From positions 438,501 to 502,500 of the forward strand of contig CAJNDS010002145.1 in assembly GCA_905221605.1 (NCBI GenBank): 64,000 nucleotides of DNA. Reading direction: 5' to 3'. A program made the position numbers and the translations under genes. The notes under the pieces are model-generated. The model saw nothing but the letters and a program-made list of their open reading frames with translations, searched no databases and had not been told where the DNA came from. Each line of letters begins with the position of its first letter. Positions within the stretch are counted from its first letter, which is position 1. The DNA is from Symbiodinium natans. Lineage: Eukaryota > Sar > Dinophyceae > Suessiales > Symbiodiniaceae. Shown here piece by piece: positions 6,201 through 62,000 of the stretch.

Positions 6201-6487
6201 GTGTGTGGGTGTGTGGGTGTGTGGGTGTGTGGGTGTGTGGGTGTGTGGGTGTGTGGGTGTGTGGGTGTGTGGGTGTGTGGGTGTGTGGGTGTGTGGGTGT
6301 GTGGGTGTGTGGGTGTGTGGGTGTGTGGGTGTGTGGGTGTGTGGGGGTGTGGGTGTGTGGGTGTGTGGGTGTGTGGGTGTGTGGGTGTGTGGGTGTGTGG
6401 GTGTGTGGGTGTGTGGGTGTGTGGGTGTGTGGGTGTGTGGGTGTGTGGGTGTGGGGGTGTGTGGGTGTGTGTGTGTGTGTGTGTGTG
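6200..6487. repeat. 8-bp TGTGTGGG array, second locus
   Basis: More than thirty nearly perfect copies of the unit also found at 2471-2638, ending in a (TG)n tail. This marks the right edge of the duplicated block. Confidence 0.95.
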
Positions 6488-17070: not shown

Positions 17071-18825
17071 ACCGCGTCAGGAACCTCATGGAGGAACAGG
17101 GTGGTGCTGGGGGCTCCTTGGCGGCTCCACAAGCAGACCTTCGGCAACAACTGCTTCATCGTTGCGATGTTTGTTTTGTTTCATGTCGCCCAATCGTCGC
17201 ACCACTTCAGGCAGGCTCATGTGCCTTCGCCGCACTTCACCGCGAGGACTCGCTCTGGGTCCCTTCGCTCAGCAATGCCGTCTCATCAACTAGGGATTCC
17301 AACCACGGCATCACCAGAAAACGATTCCAGGACTGGTCCTGCAACTGTTAGCATTTTCAGAGTCAAGCTTGTGCCTCTCCATTCAGGTCGAGCCATTCAC
17401 GCTTTTGTTGGCGTGGTCACGAACAAAAACAACACATACGCTCCTGCGGATGAATGGAATCGTTTGGAGCCGATACCGATGTAGCAATACCATGTCCACC
17501 TGGGAGTAGTCCTCAGCAAACGGAATGCTACAGAAGAGCATGATGTTGCATCATGGCAAACTCCTGATGCAAATGCAAGAAATCCTCCTACTGTCATGCG
17601 AGCGAGAAGCATATCTCTCGCACGAGGCCGAGCGCAAGGGATCATACGGCAATTAGAGTGTGCTTTTGATTATCTCAATTATATTTTCGCTAGCTTGCGG
17701 CCAACCACATCTAAACGTGCAGGTCCCCAGCTGAAGGCCCCAATTTGGAACCATGATTTCATCATCAGCTAGTTCCTCCAAGCCCGCGGCGATGACCCGA
17801 CCTCGGATGAAGCGGAAGAATGTAGCCCTGCGGCTGCTGTCAAAGGCCAACCTCACAAGCCAACGAAGCCAACGTGGCTCTCACATACCTCCCCCCGAAC
17901 AATGGCAAAGGAGTCCGATACCCGCATCGCGACGTGCTCCAAGCCTCAGAGAGGGCGGCATGATGTACAAGATGGCACAAAGCACTTAATGCCGTAGACA
18001 TTCCAAGACGATTTGCTGTTCTTCGTCATCGGCATACGGCAACAGGTTCGTGTCCGGCTGAAACCGTTGGCTACAGCCAAAAACAACAGCGTTCGGAACT
18101 AAGCCATCTGAGAGCTACTAAGCGCTCTCGCAAAAAAAAAAAAAGCTCCCCCGCCATCTCTCACGCCGCGGCTTCCTCCTAACTCGAAAAACAGTTCCTA
18201 AGCCGACTCTCTCGCCCCCCTCAATTTTTACTGAAGACTGAAAGACCCTAACGACACGTGTGTGTTTGATTTTCTTGTCGTGCTTTGACGCCCCCGACCT
18301 CGGTTTTCGTTGCACCCTCCCCCGCTGTTTTATCCTTCTGACCCGTGGAGTTTGTTTTTTGTTGAACCTTCTGCTTGGTTCGAAAACCTGTTTTTTGCTA
18401 CCCCACCGTTCCAACGGGCCCAGGCTGTCAAAGATAGTGGCTTTTTGGGGGGTATGTCCGGAAATGTTGGGGAAACATGCGCATCTTTGATACTATGTGT
18501 TTTCTGCTGATGCAGGGCAGTGCCAATAATGCTAGTGGAGGGGAAAGCCCGGTGTATTTTCTGCATATGCTACTGATTCAAACATCACCACTTGAAGGTT
18601 GTTGGGAGGTCGCATCACAAACTTAGCATGATGTTCTTGAAGTTTGAAGCCACGGCTTTGACAGAGGCGGGGTTGGGAACGTGGGCGCGCAACTCGGCGG
18701 AACAGCTTCCACCCTCATTTGCAAACAATACTCTTACGGGCTTTGAAAAGGCCTTCGTACCGGTTTTGAGAACAGGCAACCCCCTGCACGTCGGGCCCCT
18801 CAATTTTGCGGACGGTTCCCACCCG
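17071..18825. other. No recognised gene
   Basis: Short frames on both strands. A poly-A run is at 18133-18145. A minus frame at 18615-18800 reads into the poly-C tract as Gly repeats and is an artefact beyond that point. Confidence 0.4.
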
Positions 18826-18937
18826 CTCCCTCCCCCCCACCCGCCCCCCCCCCGCCGCCCCCCCCCCCCCCCCCCCCCCCCGCTCGGCCCCCCCCCCCCG
18901 GCCCCCTCGCCCCCCCCCCCCACCCCCCCCCCAGCCC
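18826..18937. repeat. Poly-C tract (G-rich on minus strand)
   Basis: Over 100 bases, almost all C, in runs of up to more than 20, with isolated G, A or T. The minus strand is a strong G-quadruplex candidate. Long C runs are also a known source of sequencing and assembly error. Confidence 0.95.
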
Positions 18938-18975
18938 CATCTTCAAAACTCCAACAACCACACCCACATCCCACC

Positions 18976-19032
18976 CTCCTAAGCCCTCAACCTAAACTAA
19001 ACCCTAAACCTAAACCATAAACCATAAAACCA
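18976..19032. repeat. Short interstitial telomere-like tract
   Basis: Degenerate CCCTAAA words (ACCCTAAACCTAAACC, then ACCATAAACC) right after the poly-C run. This is the plant and dinoflagellate type of telomere repeat, C-rich on the plus strand. Confidence 0.75.
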
Positions 19033-37254: not shown

Positions 37255-37640
37255 CGCCAACGCCGCAACCCGCAGAGGGGTTACGTTTGTTTGTCAAAAA
37301 AGGCCAAAACACGATGGTTTTGGCACCGCGCCAACGCCGAAACCCGCAGAGGGTTGTCTGCGGCCACGGAAAAAAGTTCCAAAAACGACGGTTTTAGCAC
37401 CGCGACCCGGCGATCACCCGCAGAGGGTTGTCCGCGGACACAAAGAAACGTAAAAAAAACGACGGTTTTGGCACCGCGACCACGCCGAAACCCGCAGAGG
37501 GTTGTCCGCGGCCACAAAGAAACGTAAAAAAACGACGGTTTTGGCACCGCGACCACGCCGAAACCCGCAGAGGGTTGTCCGCCGTAAAAAAACGACGGTT
37601 TTAGCAGCGCGACCACGCCGAAACCCGCAGAGGGTTGCAA
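37255..37640. repeat. About six 57-78 bp tandem copies with AACCCGCAGAGGGTT hairpin
   Basis: Each unit carries AACCCGCAGAGGGTT (5-base arms), ACGACGGTTTT and CACCGCGACC, and most carry an A-run. Copies towards the right are nearly identical. The last is cut at 37640. Confidence 0.9.
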
Positions 37641-55144: not shown

Positions 55145-58100
55145 CTGCAGCGTGGCTCAAGGGGACTAAACAGAAGAAGGAAAGGCTGGGGAGTCAATGG
55201 TCAATAGAACGTGCACTGGACCAAGCCGGAACACATAAACTCAGGATTATGCGTGGCAGCGGGGGAAGCTTTGAAAAAATCCGACGACGTCGTTGACATG
55301 ATGAATGCTCGGTGCACGCTCTCGTACCTCTGGAATACAAACGAAAGGGACAACAACTACACATACTACACACTTAAGCTTGGCCACGAATGATGACATG
55401 AGGCCAAACAAACCTCGACTCTGTACATATGTTATGTGGCGGTCATCTTTGCTTGCACTGTTGTACACTTGCGTACGACACATGCACACAAACTGTCATG
55501 CACTTTCTTGCAACAAGGGTCTTCTACTGTCGACGTTACCACAGGGACTCACTCGGAACTTTCGTAAGGGTCCCGATTCCGACCCTTTGTCGAATAGCGC
55601 ATGTCCGAAAGCTCTCTGAAGATGGAATATCCGACCTTTAGTCACGGCCACCAAGTAAGGTGAGCCCCTTCACCTGTGGTCTTCATAGTACTGACAACTT
55701 CTTGGGGGCTCTAAACGATGTACATGGAACTGCAATGTCTAGCTCTTCGACTGCGTAAAAGAGCGACAGCATCAAAAAACACCATCCCCCGGGTTTCCAC
55801 CCACCACCGCATCTCCGCCCAAGTCGCATGCACTGTGCTGGGTCAAGGCACAAACCTAGTCACGAGGCCCATACCAAGAGACGAGTGCTTGCTTCAAGCA
55901 CACCATGAGTGAAGGAAACGTCTCAGACGCAAATGTAGCGCTTATTGCAGCTGATCATCAAAACAGAGCGTAAACAAAGTCCAATGGATTCGAGTGATGC
56001 CCTGCAGACAAACGGCTCATAGCGAATCCAATAAAATCCGGCGCGCGCCTACAAAGATGGGCTGGTGGCACAAAAACACGAGTTCATTTCGTCACGCAAA
56101 CAAGTATGATAAAACTCTACAGGTGCGCGGTCGAGAAGGTCCGACAAATTCTATCACGAAAATGTTCGGCGCAGGGTTTGTGAGGCAGGGAGAAATCCTG
56201 TCCCTGTACCTGTTTAATCCCCTCCCCCTAATACTAAACCCCACCCTAATTTTGAATATCATTTTCCCCAGACCCTCCCGGCACCCAGCCCAATACTAAA
56301 CCTGTTTGAGAATTTGGGGGGGGTCGAGGGCCTCCGCCCTTGAGTTGAGACATTAGGGTTTTCAATTAGGGTTAGGGCTTAAGGCTCAGAGGATTTGCAG
56401 GGAAAGCAACCAAAACAACAAAAACGCAAATGAACAAAGCAAAACGAAGAACGAAGAAGCAAACGAGTAAGCACGAATGCAAAATCAAGAGGACGAACAG
56501 CAAAGCAACAACAGGACGAGCAAAGTCTTGACGACGTTGGATCTTATGACATACAGGTACTGTGTGGCCGGAATATTCTGCCATCAGGCTCTGTTGATTT
56601 CGCTGCTCCGACACGCACAATTTGCCGAACCGTGCTGGCTACATCTACTTCCTCTATTGCTCTGACGTGATCAAGACAGTGCAGGTACCCCAAAGACTTG
56701 GGTGCAGAGAACTTCCTTGGGAAGCAATCCCCATCCCTCGCGGCTGACACCCTCACAATGTGCAGGCATTGCACACGTACACTCCAGAGCCACTGTAACT
56801 CAAGCAATCATGCTGTGCCCAGGGTCCTGAGGCAGGGCCTCAATCGCTTGATCATAAATCTCACGAGTACGGGTCTGGCCTGTAGTCATCACACAGTCAA
56901 AAGCTTGTGGAAGCCGAGGAAATCCGAGGAAGCAACAGCTTGCGAGATAAAAGGATCTAAGGTAAGACTTGGACCGAAGAGCTCAGCGGTCTTGCGCAGC
57001 AGAATACCGTACATCTCAAACATGTCCTGGCACTGCCAAATGCATACCGCTGTGTAAAATCAAAGAGCGTCAGGTTGCACTGGCCTTCTCTTCAACTGCT
57101 TTTGTGGCCCGATTGTAGATGGACAGCGCGTGCCTGCAAGACATATGATGTGCAGAATGTATATACACATACATGTATATATATATATAGATATATGATA
57201 CATGGTATACAGCCATTACAGCCAAGGAAGCCCTGTTGAAATCCTGAAAACAGCCACTGTAAGCCTTGCGAGACCGTGCTCCTCCTCAAGCTTGGCATAG
57301 AGCATGTGCAGCCTGCGCACGACTTTCTGTACGCAGCCAATCGGGAGCCTGCTCACGACTCTTGCTGGGTTGACGAGGAATGAAACGGGTTCCAGAACCT
57401 TCTTGCGAACTTCGACGGTACCTTTGTCAGCGCTCATCTCCAAACAGGAAGAACTTGAAACCATGAAGGTGCGGCCTTCTCCACTGCTTGTTCAAAAAGG
57501 TCTCTGGCACGTTCCAGCCTCAATCAACACAGAGAAGCTTAGTGCAAACGTGCAGCCGACATGAAAACAAAGGAACCAGTGGGACTGCGACTTGCGACCA
57601 CCGTATCGCTCTACGAATTTTGACAAGTATGTGAGCCTGCCACAATCAAAGAAGAACACGCAGATGCAGCAGAGACGACTGCTCTCTCTTACATGGCCCT
57701 TTGAAGGCGATAGCATAGAGTATGAGCAGGCAGCCAATGTCACGGCAGGAAGACCAAATATCACCGACATGCGGCCATGAAAACACCTGGACAAGGGTGC
57801 TGGCTTCAGCTTACGCTGACAGAATGCCATGTGCCAGCCTTGATACCACGCTCATAGACTTTGAAGGCATCTTCAAAGTACTTTCGGTCCTCTCTTCCAG
57901 AGCTGAATGACTGTGGCGAGTCTACAACATGTCTTTCAGTGTGCAACTCAGCTGCTCCTCCAAAAATCTTGCATAGCTCAAAATCAGAGCAGGTGACGCA
58001 ACCTGCATGAGGAGCCAGTCAACGACTCTTACATGCCGAAGCCTCTCTTCACCACCATCCATAGGTTCACAGCTTCAAAAACAGCCTCACAGTGGCTCAT

Positions 58101-59003
58101 GACACGGCTCTCATAGTCTACTTGCAAACTGAACCGTTTCATTGAGACCCTGGGAGCCACTAAGGGGCAAGGCTAAGGGGCAAGGCTGGGCCGGGCAAGG
58201 GGTAGGATCTTTTGTCTGGAGCTTGCACTGACCTGACCAAACAAAACTGCACCTTGAGTTCCAGAGTTGCATCATATGCCGCCTGAGCGATCGATGGCAA
58301 TAGCGATTATGTCATCTAACTGGTTGAGAAAAAACGTGAAGTTCCTAGGCGTGGACTCTGGTTGATGCAGTGGTTCCCAAAGACCTGAAAAGATGCCACA
58401 TGTTGATCGAATGTGGCCCGTCCCAAGGAATGTTCTTCTTCCACTAGCAAAAGCAAGCAGTTGAACCTTGGCTGAGGCAAAGGCTCCTCAAGGTCAATGC
58501 AGAGCGACCACAGCTTGGTCGATCGGTACAACCGATTCTGAACATCGTCCTGGCCAAGCCAACAGGATTGGGATGCGGGAGAGAGGATAAAGTGTTAAGC
58601 CTTGTCTTCTTTCAAAGCCGCAGCTTTCTTCTGGCCGGCGGCTTGCCGTGCCACCTGCAGAAAACATAGCAGACTTCTGACGGGTGCAACTTGTCAGCAC
58701 ACCCTCAAACCAGCTTGTTTGAAGTTTCGAAAAGTGTCAAGACTGATCGTATCCAAACAGCTGAAAATACAATGTGAGCATGAATCAAAGATTCTTGCCA
58801 GCTTTGCAAATCCTTTTGATTCTTTCCAAAACCTTTTCAAAACTCTTAATGTTAGATACTTTTTAATGTGTCTATTTTGACTTTCTGTTTGAAAATGTTT
58901 TGACTGACGACTCACAGCAATCAACTACTCAACTCTAGTCCTCACTGGAGGCTCGGAGCCTGTGCTTGGCAATTGTTGGAGACTAGTCACACACACAGAC
59001 ACA

Positions 59004-59051
<48 letters not shown>

Positions 59052-62000
59052 GACAGACACAGACACACCCTCGAACCAGCTTGTTTGAAGCTTCGAAGGA
59101 GTGTCAAGACTGCTGAGTACAACGTGGTTGGAACTCCAAAACAGTTGAATAGCCCTGGAGTCCTGAATCTTGGGTGCCCCCCCTCAAATGGCCACCAAGC
59201 CGATACCACCCGCATCCATGTGGCTCTCGCCAACGTTAAACAGCTCAGGTGCCAATCTGCAGATCTGCAGCTTGTTGCAAGATTAAGGGAGAGTCGAATT
59301 CTGGGCTCAGGGTAAGTGGGAACTTGGGCTTGGAGCATCTTTTGCCCAACCACGGAGGAAAATGCCGACTAGAAGTGTCCTCGAGCCGGTCTCAAGCTAA
59401 CCCACCACTCACAGAACTCACAACAGTTCCAAATTTGGTTCGGCACAGTGGTTCAAGCTCAACTTTATCTCACACATCAGGGTAGCCTATGGTAACCTGC
59501 CACAGCTCCCCACAACCTTCCTGTGGTGAGTGGTGCTGACTGCACGTGCCTGGGCCCCCAACTAACTTGCCCCACCTGCCCCACGGTCAAAGCGCGTTTC
59601 GGGTCCGCCCGACCGTGAACGGGGGTGTGCGTTTCAGGTCCGCCGTGCGTGGCCACGGAGGTGCGTTTCAGGCTCTGCTGGACTGCGTTTCGTACAGGCC
59701 AAGGTGCGTTTCAGGTCCGGCACCACCAGAGAGCCACAAGTCCGAAGCCCCTGAAGCCACCCGCTACAAGCCATGTCAGGCCGCGTTCAGGTTTATAGGG
59801 TTTATTGTATTTATAGGGTCCAGGACTTATAGGGTTTAGGGGCTTTGGCATCCAATACAGTAAAGTCCTTGGTTTAGGCTACCTAAACTTATCACCTAAA
59901 CTGAACCCTAAAGCCCAATCAAACGTTAACCCTTAACCCTAAACAGCGCCGCCCAAGGTGTATTTAGGGACTCTATAAAGTTGTACCCTTGGGTTGAGGG
60001 ACCCTTTTCAAGATCCTCTGGGGAGAATGAAGAGGGGTCCAGACCAGCGAGGTACCGGCGCTGAGTTGACACTTTGTGCCGCCCTAAACTAAAACCTAAA
60101 ACCTAAACCCTAAACCCTAAACCCTAAACCCTAAGCCCTGAACCCTAAACCCTAGACCCTCAACCGAAAACCCTAAACCGTAAACCCCAAACCCTAAACT
60201 CAAAACCCTAAACCCTAAACCCGAAACCCTAAACCCGAAACCCTAAACCCTAAAACCTAAACCCCAAACCCTAAAGCCTAAACCCTAAACCCCCTAAACC
60301 TTACAACCTAAACACTAAGCCCTAAACCCTAAACCGTAAACCCTAAGCCCTACACCCTAAACCGTAAACCCTAAACCGTAAACCCTAAACCCTACACCCT
60401 AAACCCTAAACCCGAAACCCTAAACCCGAAACCCTAAACCCTAAAACCTAAACCCGAAACCCTAAAGCCTAAACCCTAAACCCCCTAAACCTAAACCCTA
60501 AACCCTAAACCCTAAACCGTAAACCCTAAGCCCTAAACCCTAAACCGTAAACCCTAAACCGTAAACCCTAAACCCTAAACCCTAAACCCCAAACCCGAAA
60601 CCCTAAACCCGAAACCCTACACCCTAAAACCTAATCCCCAAACCCTAAACCCTAAACCATAAGTAGTGCGCCTGAAATGCACCATGTGTGCGTCTGAAAT
60701 GCCCCCTGTGTGGTTCTAAATTGTGTCCCGTCTGGTTCCTGAGCACCGGACCTGAAATTGGTACCTGAAACGACCCTAGGTGCGTCAGAACCGTACAACA
60801 CTCCCTGCCCCACAAGTCCCTCTTGTACCTCACTCCTCACTCCGGGAAGTGCACAAGTGGGCAAGTGAGGCAGGCGCAAATAAGGTGAAAGTGGGCCAAG
60901 AGAAGAAGCAGGGCAAGTACATACAGGCTATCTATGCTGCTGGAACGGGGCAAGTGGGGTGGTGCGTCTCAGCTGCGCCTGCAATGCAACATCAAGCTCA
61001 TTGCAAAGCCTTGAGTGCTTCGTCGTACTCTTTGTGGCGGAGCTCCATCTCGATCCACTCACACCAGACCTTCGCACTTTCGACCAAAGATCCGTCATCT
61101 GTTCTCTTTTGCAGAGCCCACGATACTTGGGCTTGGACGGAGGCTAAGTCATCAACCCCTCGATACTTCACCTGCGTCGCCTGGGCGTTCGGCATTGAAG
61201 CAGCCAACACAGACACGTGTGAATCAGAGCGTGGGCAGCTGAGAAGCCATCCTTCGAAAAGATCACACGAGCGTTCTCCAAATCATCATGCGACTCGTAG
61301 AACTGCAGCATGCAAGATTCTCGCGAAGCTAAGTTCCTTTTACATTCAGTTGGCAAAGGATACAAGCAGGAGGCGCCACAGGCCTTTGCAAAAGCCGCCC
61401 ACAAGGTCCACAAGCGACCTTCTGCCTTCCGAGGATCAGGATGTAGGGTTCAGGGTCTAGGGCTTTTAGGGTCTAGGTGCAGGCAATAGAGTTTAGGGCT
61501 CTAATGAATGCATAGCTATGCCACAGACATATTCTCATCCGTAGGGCTTGCAGTGTCCTATTTCTTTGTCCAGTTGCTTTGGTGTGGCTTTTCTGCTTCG
61601 TTACAACCTGTTACACGTCAACATCGATGCACCTTTTGCTAGGGCTTGCGCGGGCTCAAAAAAGCTCAAGAATGCTCAAAGATGTATCTTTGAGAAAACC
61701 AGGGCTTTCAACGAACCACTTTCAAGTAGAAATTTAGGGTTCAAAAGCAAAGAAAGCGGCAAGAGAAATGAAACAATGGCCATGCCTTCTGAGGATCCAC
61801 GGTCATGACCTGGTCGGGTCATTTGCATTGCGGCCTTTCCACCACGAGCGCACCGCGACTAACAGCCAAAGCAGCCAGGCCCCCGGCGGCTTCCGTAAAG
61901 CAGCGAATGACCTTCTCTGGTGAATCCTGAGATTGTGAGGCATCAAGCTGGGGTGTAAGCATTAGCTAAAGCGGTCCTTGTACAGCTTCGCTCGCTGCAG

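Follow-up and report, generated by a model that had tools for sequence, protein, structure and literature searches.

The window analysed here is a stretch of 64,000 nucleotides of the Symbiodinium natans genome, taken from the contig designated C1833. It contains part of the gene for SYF1, which is read from the minus strand. For the exon that ends at 61010, matches to SYF1 chains have E values of 8e-5 to 1e-4. When this exon is joined to 58654-58601 and to the coding sequence from 58549 downward, the product aligns in one stretch to the SYF1 chain 5mqf_M (E 5e-14). Coding is therefore continuous across the intervening DNA, as a first-pass annotation of this locus had claimed. Within the intron lies a telomere-like cassette, in which inward TTTCAGG-type repeats enclose a 574-bp CCCTAAA array (Table 1).

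Table 1. The cassette, its parts and the surrounding SYF1 sequence, in window coordinates.
Feature	Position	Strand	Basis or remark
SYF1 coding exon, downstream of intron	58601-58654	-	
SYF1 intron, 2,355 bp, GC...AG, contains the element	58655-61009	-	Predicted splice sites, read by eye from the sequence
CCTGCCCCAC, 10-bp target-site duplication, left copy	59575-59584	+	Exact match to 60804-60813
Non-autonomous DNA transposon (very probable), 1219 bp	59585-60803	+	Recurrent ends; flanks unlike those at other copies
Left end, GGTCAAAGCGCG...	59585-59725	+	Subterminal repeats CGTTTCRGG at element positions 11, 46, 80 and 123
Degenerate G-rich TTTATAGGG/TTTAGGG block, left inner part	59785-59841	+	
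Near-palindrome GTTTAGG-CTA-CCTAAAC	59871-59889	.	Read by eye
CCCTAAA array	60089-60662	+	81.6 copies of CTAAACC, 83% matches
Right end	60664-60803	-	Four inward TTTCAGG-type subterminal repeats; terminus ...GTGCGTCAGAACCGTACAACACTC on the + strand
CCTGCCCCAC, target-site duplication, right copy	60804-60813	+	Exact match to 59575-59584
SYF1 coding exon, upstream of intron	61010-61282	-	Right limit from the open frame only

The CCCTAAA array, the TTTAGGG words and the near-palindrome that the first-pass annotation described are all present. The array is far above chance, as it holds 73 of the 81 near-matches to (CCCTAAA)2 in the window, where shuffled sequence gave 0.28 in total. It also has a higher-order repeat of approximately 183-191 bp, which is seen as a 392-bp stretch that matches a copy about 183 bp earlier at 88.5%. 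The flanking repeat does occur in opposite orientations, as had been proposed: there are four TTTC[AG]G words in the left 206 bp and four in the right 140 bp, all eight point inward and none outward, and the inward count on either side was reached by 0 of 5000 shuffles. The edges, previously placed at 59593 and 60780, are corrected to 59585 and 60803 by the other copies described below and by the flanking 10-bp repeat. In addition, the flanks that had been read as subtelomeric are the inverted subterminal repeats of an element, with ends given as GGTCAAAGCGCG and GAGTGTTGTACGG and inward repeats of the CGTTTCAGG type.

Several other repeats occur in the window. A short, degenerate TTTAGGG stretch, G-rich on the + strand, adjoins SYF1 coding sequence at 61440-61500. 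Below the SYF1 frames, at 56215-56385, C-rich CCCTAA words are followed by G-rich TTAGGG, an orientation opposite to that of the cassette. At 18818-19028, a poly-C tract leads into a short CTAAACC array of degenerate units, and poly-C also closely precedes the CCCTAAA units in the element copies L045, L056 and L060. Further, a clean (GTGTGTGG)36 array is present at 6201-6487, and tandem repeats of 60-74 bp that contain AAAAAACGACGGTTTT at 37306-37637. A search of the window against Rfam gave no matches.

The ends of the cassette recur elsewhere in the genome, which was searched over 759,417,921 bases in 2,543 contigs. Used as a DNA query, the left end is found at no fewer than 35 places, 29 of them at 90-100% identity, five at 73-76% and one as a short match at 82%. 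The right end, with up to 3 mismatches permitted, occurs at 25 places, 17 of which are identical, and the control gave none. Each of these 25 right ends has a same-strand left-end partner, and the spacing from end to end is 795 to 2,411 bp in 24 pairs and 18,035 bp in the remaining pair, on C1046. In alignments of close copies with the window, the similarity starts at 59582-59585 and stops at 60803-60805, and the flanks beyond differ. At 4 of the 29 close left ends (C1899, C224, C2262 and C1852), the pattern used found no right end; on C224, similarity ends about 0.5 kb in, as judged by eye.

A 15-mer from the flanking repeat, GTGCGTTTCAGGTCC, occurs 60 times in the genome, at 38 places, versus 3 occurrences for the control, and at 22 of these places it is present twice, 77 or 78 bp apart, as in the window. 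The first-pass annotation had linked this repeat to telomeric DNA, and the word proves not to be common throughout the genome, as 34 of its 38 exact places match the left end of the element. Nothing in these matches marks the word as subtelomeric. The other places are C415, C1112, C1291 and C2124, which are absent from the left-end matches and were taken as chance; the first three, which were among the 14 places whose surrounding DNA was examined, have unrelated surroundings.

The five left ends at 73-76% identity form a diverged subfamily (C53, C813, C2285, C2355 and C2368). Its members on C53 and C813 start with GGTCACTG, and telomere words are dense nearby. A search for duplications around these two found nothing convincing, the right end of the subfamily being undefined. 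Beyond this genome, two patterns had no matches in a viral collection. Matches to (CCCTAAA)4 were found in 9 contigs of the viral and 3 of a prokaryote collection, and word counts, with 421 bases of one locus read, revealed no sequence resembling an element end in these 12 loci.

A perfect 10-bp target-site duplication flanks 20 of the 25 two-ended copies. By comparison, random sequence would match over 10 bp at a fixed place about once in a million cases. Where both ends fell in one examined locus, 7 of 8 copies have a perfect duplication, each different, and the exception, C366, has no clear duplication at its ends. Of 16 further copies examined at their ends, 13 are perfect: 12 at fixed coordinates and C1730, which was counted with its start shifted by one base, as in the left-end search. 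Imperfect duplications are found at C2026 (9 bp, exact), C1914 (9 of 10), C2180 (8 of 10) and C1046 (9 of 10, by eye). Matches at C2239, where the duplication lies in poly-C, and at C2041, where it lies in GT-rich sequence, weigh little. As for the CCTGCCCCAC pair, a shared 10-mer of this kind turns up between random pairs in the window in 0.1% of cases with narrow flanks and in 1.6% with wide ones. Taken alone it could be chance, so it becomes convincing only alongside the duplications of the other copies.

The target sites themselves suggest, at most, a preference for telomere-like DNA. A telomere-like score of 5 or above is reached at 2 of the 25 sites versus 1.8% of random sites on C1833. 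A second background, in which 24-28% of sites qualified at scores of 4-6, was set aside as it lies partly within element copies.

The internal array was compared by aligning eight copies. Over aligned bases, the window array is 95-97% identical to those of L044, L048, L051 and L057, and 86-88% identical to those of L045, L056 and L060. Odd array units are common to the window copy and other copies. The telomere-like array is thus part of the element and homologous between copies, which means that it travelled with the element. The G-rich TTTATAGGG/TTTAGGG block is found in 6 of the 8 aligned copies. Facing arrays are clear in L060, which has 23 TTTAGGG words followed by 46 CCCTAAA words, and less clean in L056 (9 and 37), while the remaining six aligned copies have 0-2 TTTAGGG words, the window copy having 2. 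The near-palindrome, which had been seen as the joint between two chromosome ends, is present in the window copy and in the C1046 copy and absent from seven other aligned copies; consequently, it is not the centre of the family. L051 and L057 have one internal deletion in common and different duplications, so this lineage moved after the deletion arose.

Taken together, the cassette very probably belongs to a small family of non-autonomous DNA transposons with about 30 dispersed copies. Several features seen directly underlie this reading: fixed ends, dispersed copies, 10-bp duplications at most two-ended copies, inward subterminal repeats and a homologous internal array. Fixed ends in many dispersed copies and a duplication of constant length are as expected of a non-autonomous DNA transposon, or MITE in the wide sense. 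The first-pass annotation had listed among its options a mobile element with telomere-like ends. The mobile element stands, and the telomere-like DNA turns out to be internal and not at the ends. A telomere-attached retroelement (MoTeR, FoTeR or Penelope-like, the last of which we take to belong to this class) was considered and rejected: no stop-to-stop frame longer than 99 amino acids, such as might encode a reverse transcriptase, lies mainly within the window copy, which sits in a gene, with the nearer contig end about 139 kb away.

Only short similarity exists between the two ends. Eight of their outermost 20 bases match as an inverted repeat, and among the 25 inverted pairs listed, the longest match between the end regions spans 31 nt at 71%; no long terminal inverted repeat was found. 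Nor was a transposase or an autonomous copy found for the family. The MULE domain PF10551 gave at least 8 matches in the genome in a search without introns allowed, and none of eight such loci shares a contig with any of the 35 left ends. These eight loci are themselves a multi-copy transposase family, with open frames of 266-325 amino acids.

The long C1046 copy was examined as a candidate autonomous element and rejected. At the start of its array sits a retrotransposon with an RVT_2 reverse transcriptase, which we take to be copia-type, and whose LTR segments match at 97.6% over 255 bp. Besides this nested retrotransposon, the interior (C1046:678000-694958; L094, L095 and L053) contains, ahead of the right end of the element, GC-rich sequence in tandem units of about 15 bp. 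C1046 is, therefore, a copy broken by later insertions. This reading of the interior covered all but 2,433 bp adjoining the right end, where a transposase may lie.

Telomere-like DNA is not confined to this family. There are 852,709 forward and 853,942 reverse matches to (CCCTAAA)4 in the genome versus 31 for the control, counts that are of overlapping words and may include true chromosome ends. The first 100 forward matches listed, at 235-336 kb of contig C1, are spread every few kb. On C1833, between 412550 and 598644, there are five more TTTAGGG/CCCTAAA arrays of 35-230 bp, each with at least 4 exact units, in both orientations and within 264 kb. Interstitial telomere-like DNA thus looks very abundant and mostly outside the element family. 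With about 35 members found, and with the five other C1833 arrays lacking, on inspection by eye, any element end within 250 bp, the family explains only a small part of the telomere-like arrays of this genome. In the same genome, the dinoflagellate spliced-leader motif has 205 matches versus 0 for the reversed control, as befits a dinoflagellate host, and none are in the window.

Arrays of this other kind may have arisen by break repair, with or without copying of telomerase RNA, which is described as a source of interstitial telomeric sequences in mammals and other vertebrates (PMC7215372, PMC8537989); the five C1833 arrays that lack element ends nearby fit such an origin. For the cassette, the same explanation is very improbable, since break repair would not yield 25 copies that have the same non-telomeric ends, carry variants of one homologous array and are mostly flanked by perfect duplications of 10 bp. 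There is as little chance that the cassette is an introner, that is, an insertion that itself made the SYF1 intron. Recent introner activity is reported in dinoflagellates (PMC11453091, PMC7789003), but the two ends of the element stop 206 bp and 930 bp short of the splice sites that bound the intron.

A head-to-head joining of two chromosomes at their subtelomere-bearing ends, or later insertion of a piece so fused, would account for the inward flanking repeats and for the facing arrays of L060 and, less cleanly, L056. However, SYF1 continues across the cassette and an element with the same ends exists at 25 places, most with duplications, so that fusion is hardly credible here; at most, a fused piece could have been the cargo of the founder. 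The first-pass annotation had likewise considered a simple fusion unlikely and favoured insertion into the intron of one continuous gene, which agrees with these results. Its suggestions of a one-off insertion of a fused piece, break repair or mis-assembly do not fit 25 copies with the same ends, mostly with duplications of their own. Mis-assembly of a tandem repeat is about as implausible as fusion: arrays are difficult to assemble and the exact array length may be wrong, but the edges carry a perfect duplication, a like arrangement is present at many other loci and PacBio reads are reported for the S. natans assembly (PMC8045281).

For the transposon, a plausible series of events can be proposed. 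The founder element would have taken up the array as cargo, probably from the repeat-rich host genome, since (CCCTAAA)4 is so abundant there. A transposase made elsewhere may bind the CGTTTCAGG repeats in trans and either cut the element out or copy it. Insertion would then occur at a 10-bp staggered cut, and fill-in would give the duplication. Slippage and unequal exchange could then passively lengthen and shorten the array once aboard, and internal deletions would have produced shorter lineages still able to move. One such element would have landed within the SYF1 intron, which was presumably older than the insertion, away from its splice sites.

Inverted interstitial telomere arrays are usually taken as scars of fusion or break repair. 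Here, the same arrangement is very probably the work of a transposon, an origin revealed only by the flanking 10-bp duplication and by the other copies. Tallying fusions or chromosome termini by telomere words could mislead in assemblies of this kind. It is unlikely that transposons with facing arrays seed interstitial telomeric DNA genome-wide and that their cargo is functional. Were it functional, it might, for example, bind telomere proteins and thereby conceal or assist the element, or provide ready-made ends at chromosome breaks. The family is also a countable system, with defined ends, a predicted empty site and an array length for each copy, which makes it useful for asking how intrachromosomal repeats of the telomere type grow, shrink and spread.

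The build of the element closely resembles that of Mutator-like and Foldback elements. Membership is not claimed, because neither a long terminal inverted repeat nor a transposase was found. The 10-bp duplication falls within the 8-10 bp described as typical of Mutator-like elements (PMC5225508), and no terminal inverted repeat of more than 100 bp was found. Muta1 of Aedes aegypti, with a duplication of 8-9 bp, similarly has inverted ends composed of subterminal tandem repeats (PMC5225508). It is described there as having 145-bp terminal inverted repeats and a transposase, whereas the outer ends of the window element are barely inverted, its cargo is telomere-like and no transposase was found. 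The Tm1 Mutator/Foldback elements of Meloidogyne share the arrangement of asymmetric, short end motifs outside an inverted repeat of tandem motifs (PMC3169594). According to the same source, Tm1 has mostly 8-10 bp duplications, no clear target preference and MITE-like members. Its inverted repeats are reported to be 93% alike on average (PMC3169594), whereas the ends of the window element have only short motifs in common, and, unlike Tm1, no autonomous member was seen.

Other known systems match single aspects of the element. A tandem array within a non-autonomous element is described for the GTCY MITEs of insects (cited in PMC6947457) and for a Porphyromonas MITE with a minisatellite (PMC4596501); unlike these, the array of the window element is of the host telomere type and has an inverted, facing block in some copies. 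Pack-MULEs and Pack-TYPE elements are also non-autonomous with captured host DNA aboard (PMC5225508, PMC8903248), but their cargo is gene fragments rather than a telomere-like repeat. The introners of Amoebophrya are likewise dispersed, have inverted and direct repeats and lie in introns (PMC7789003). They differ in having direct repeats of 3-5 nt, as given in that report, versus 10 bp here, and the ends of the window element are not splice sites. As judged by titles and abstracts, with subscription journals mostly outside the search, no transposon carrying telomere-type arrays was found in the literature on dinoflagellates, nor any description of cargo made up of the host telomere repeat and placed partly in facing orientation. 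The class of element is known, and it is the telomere-type cargo that is unusual.
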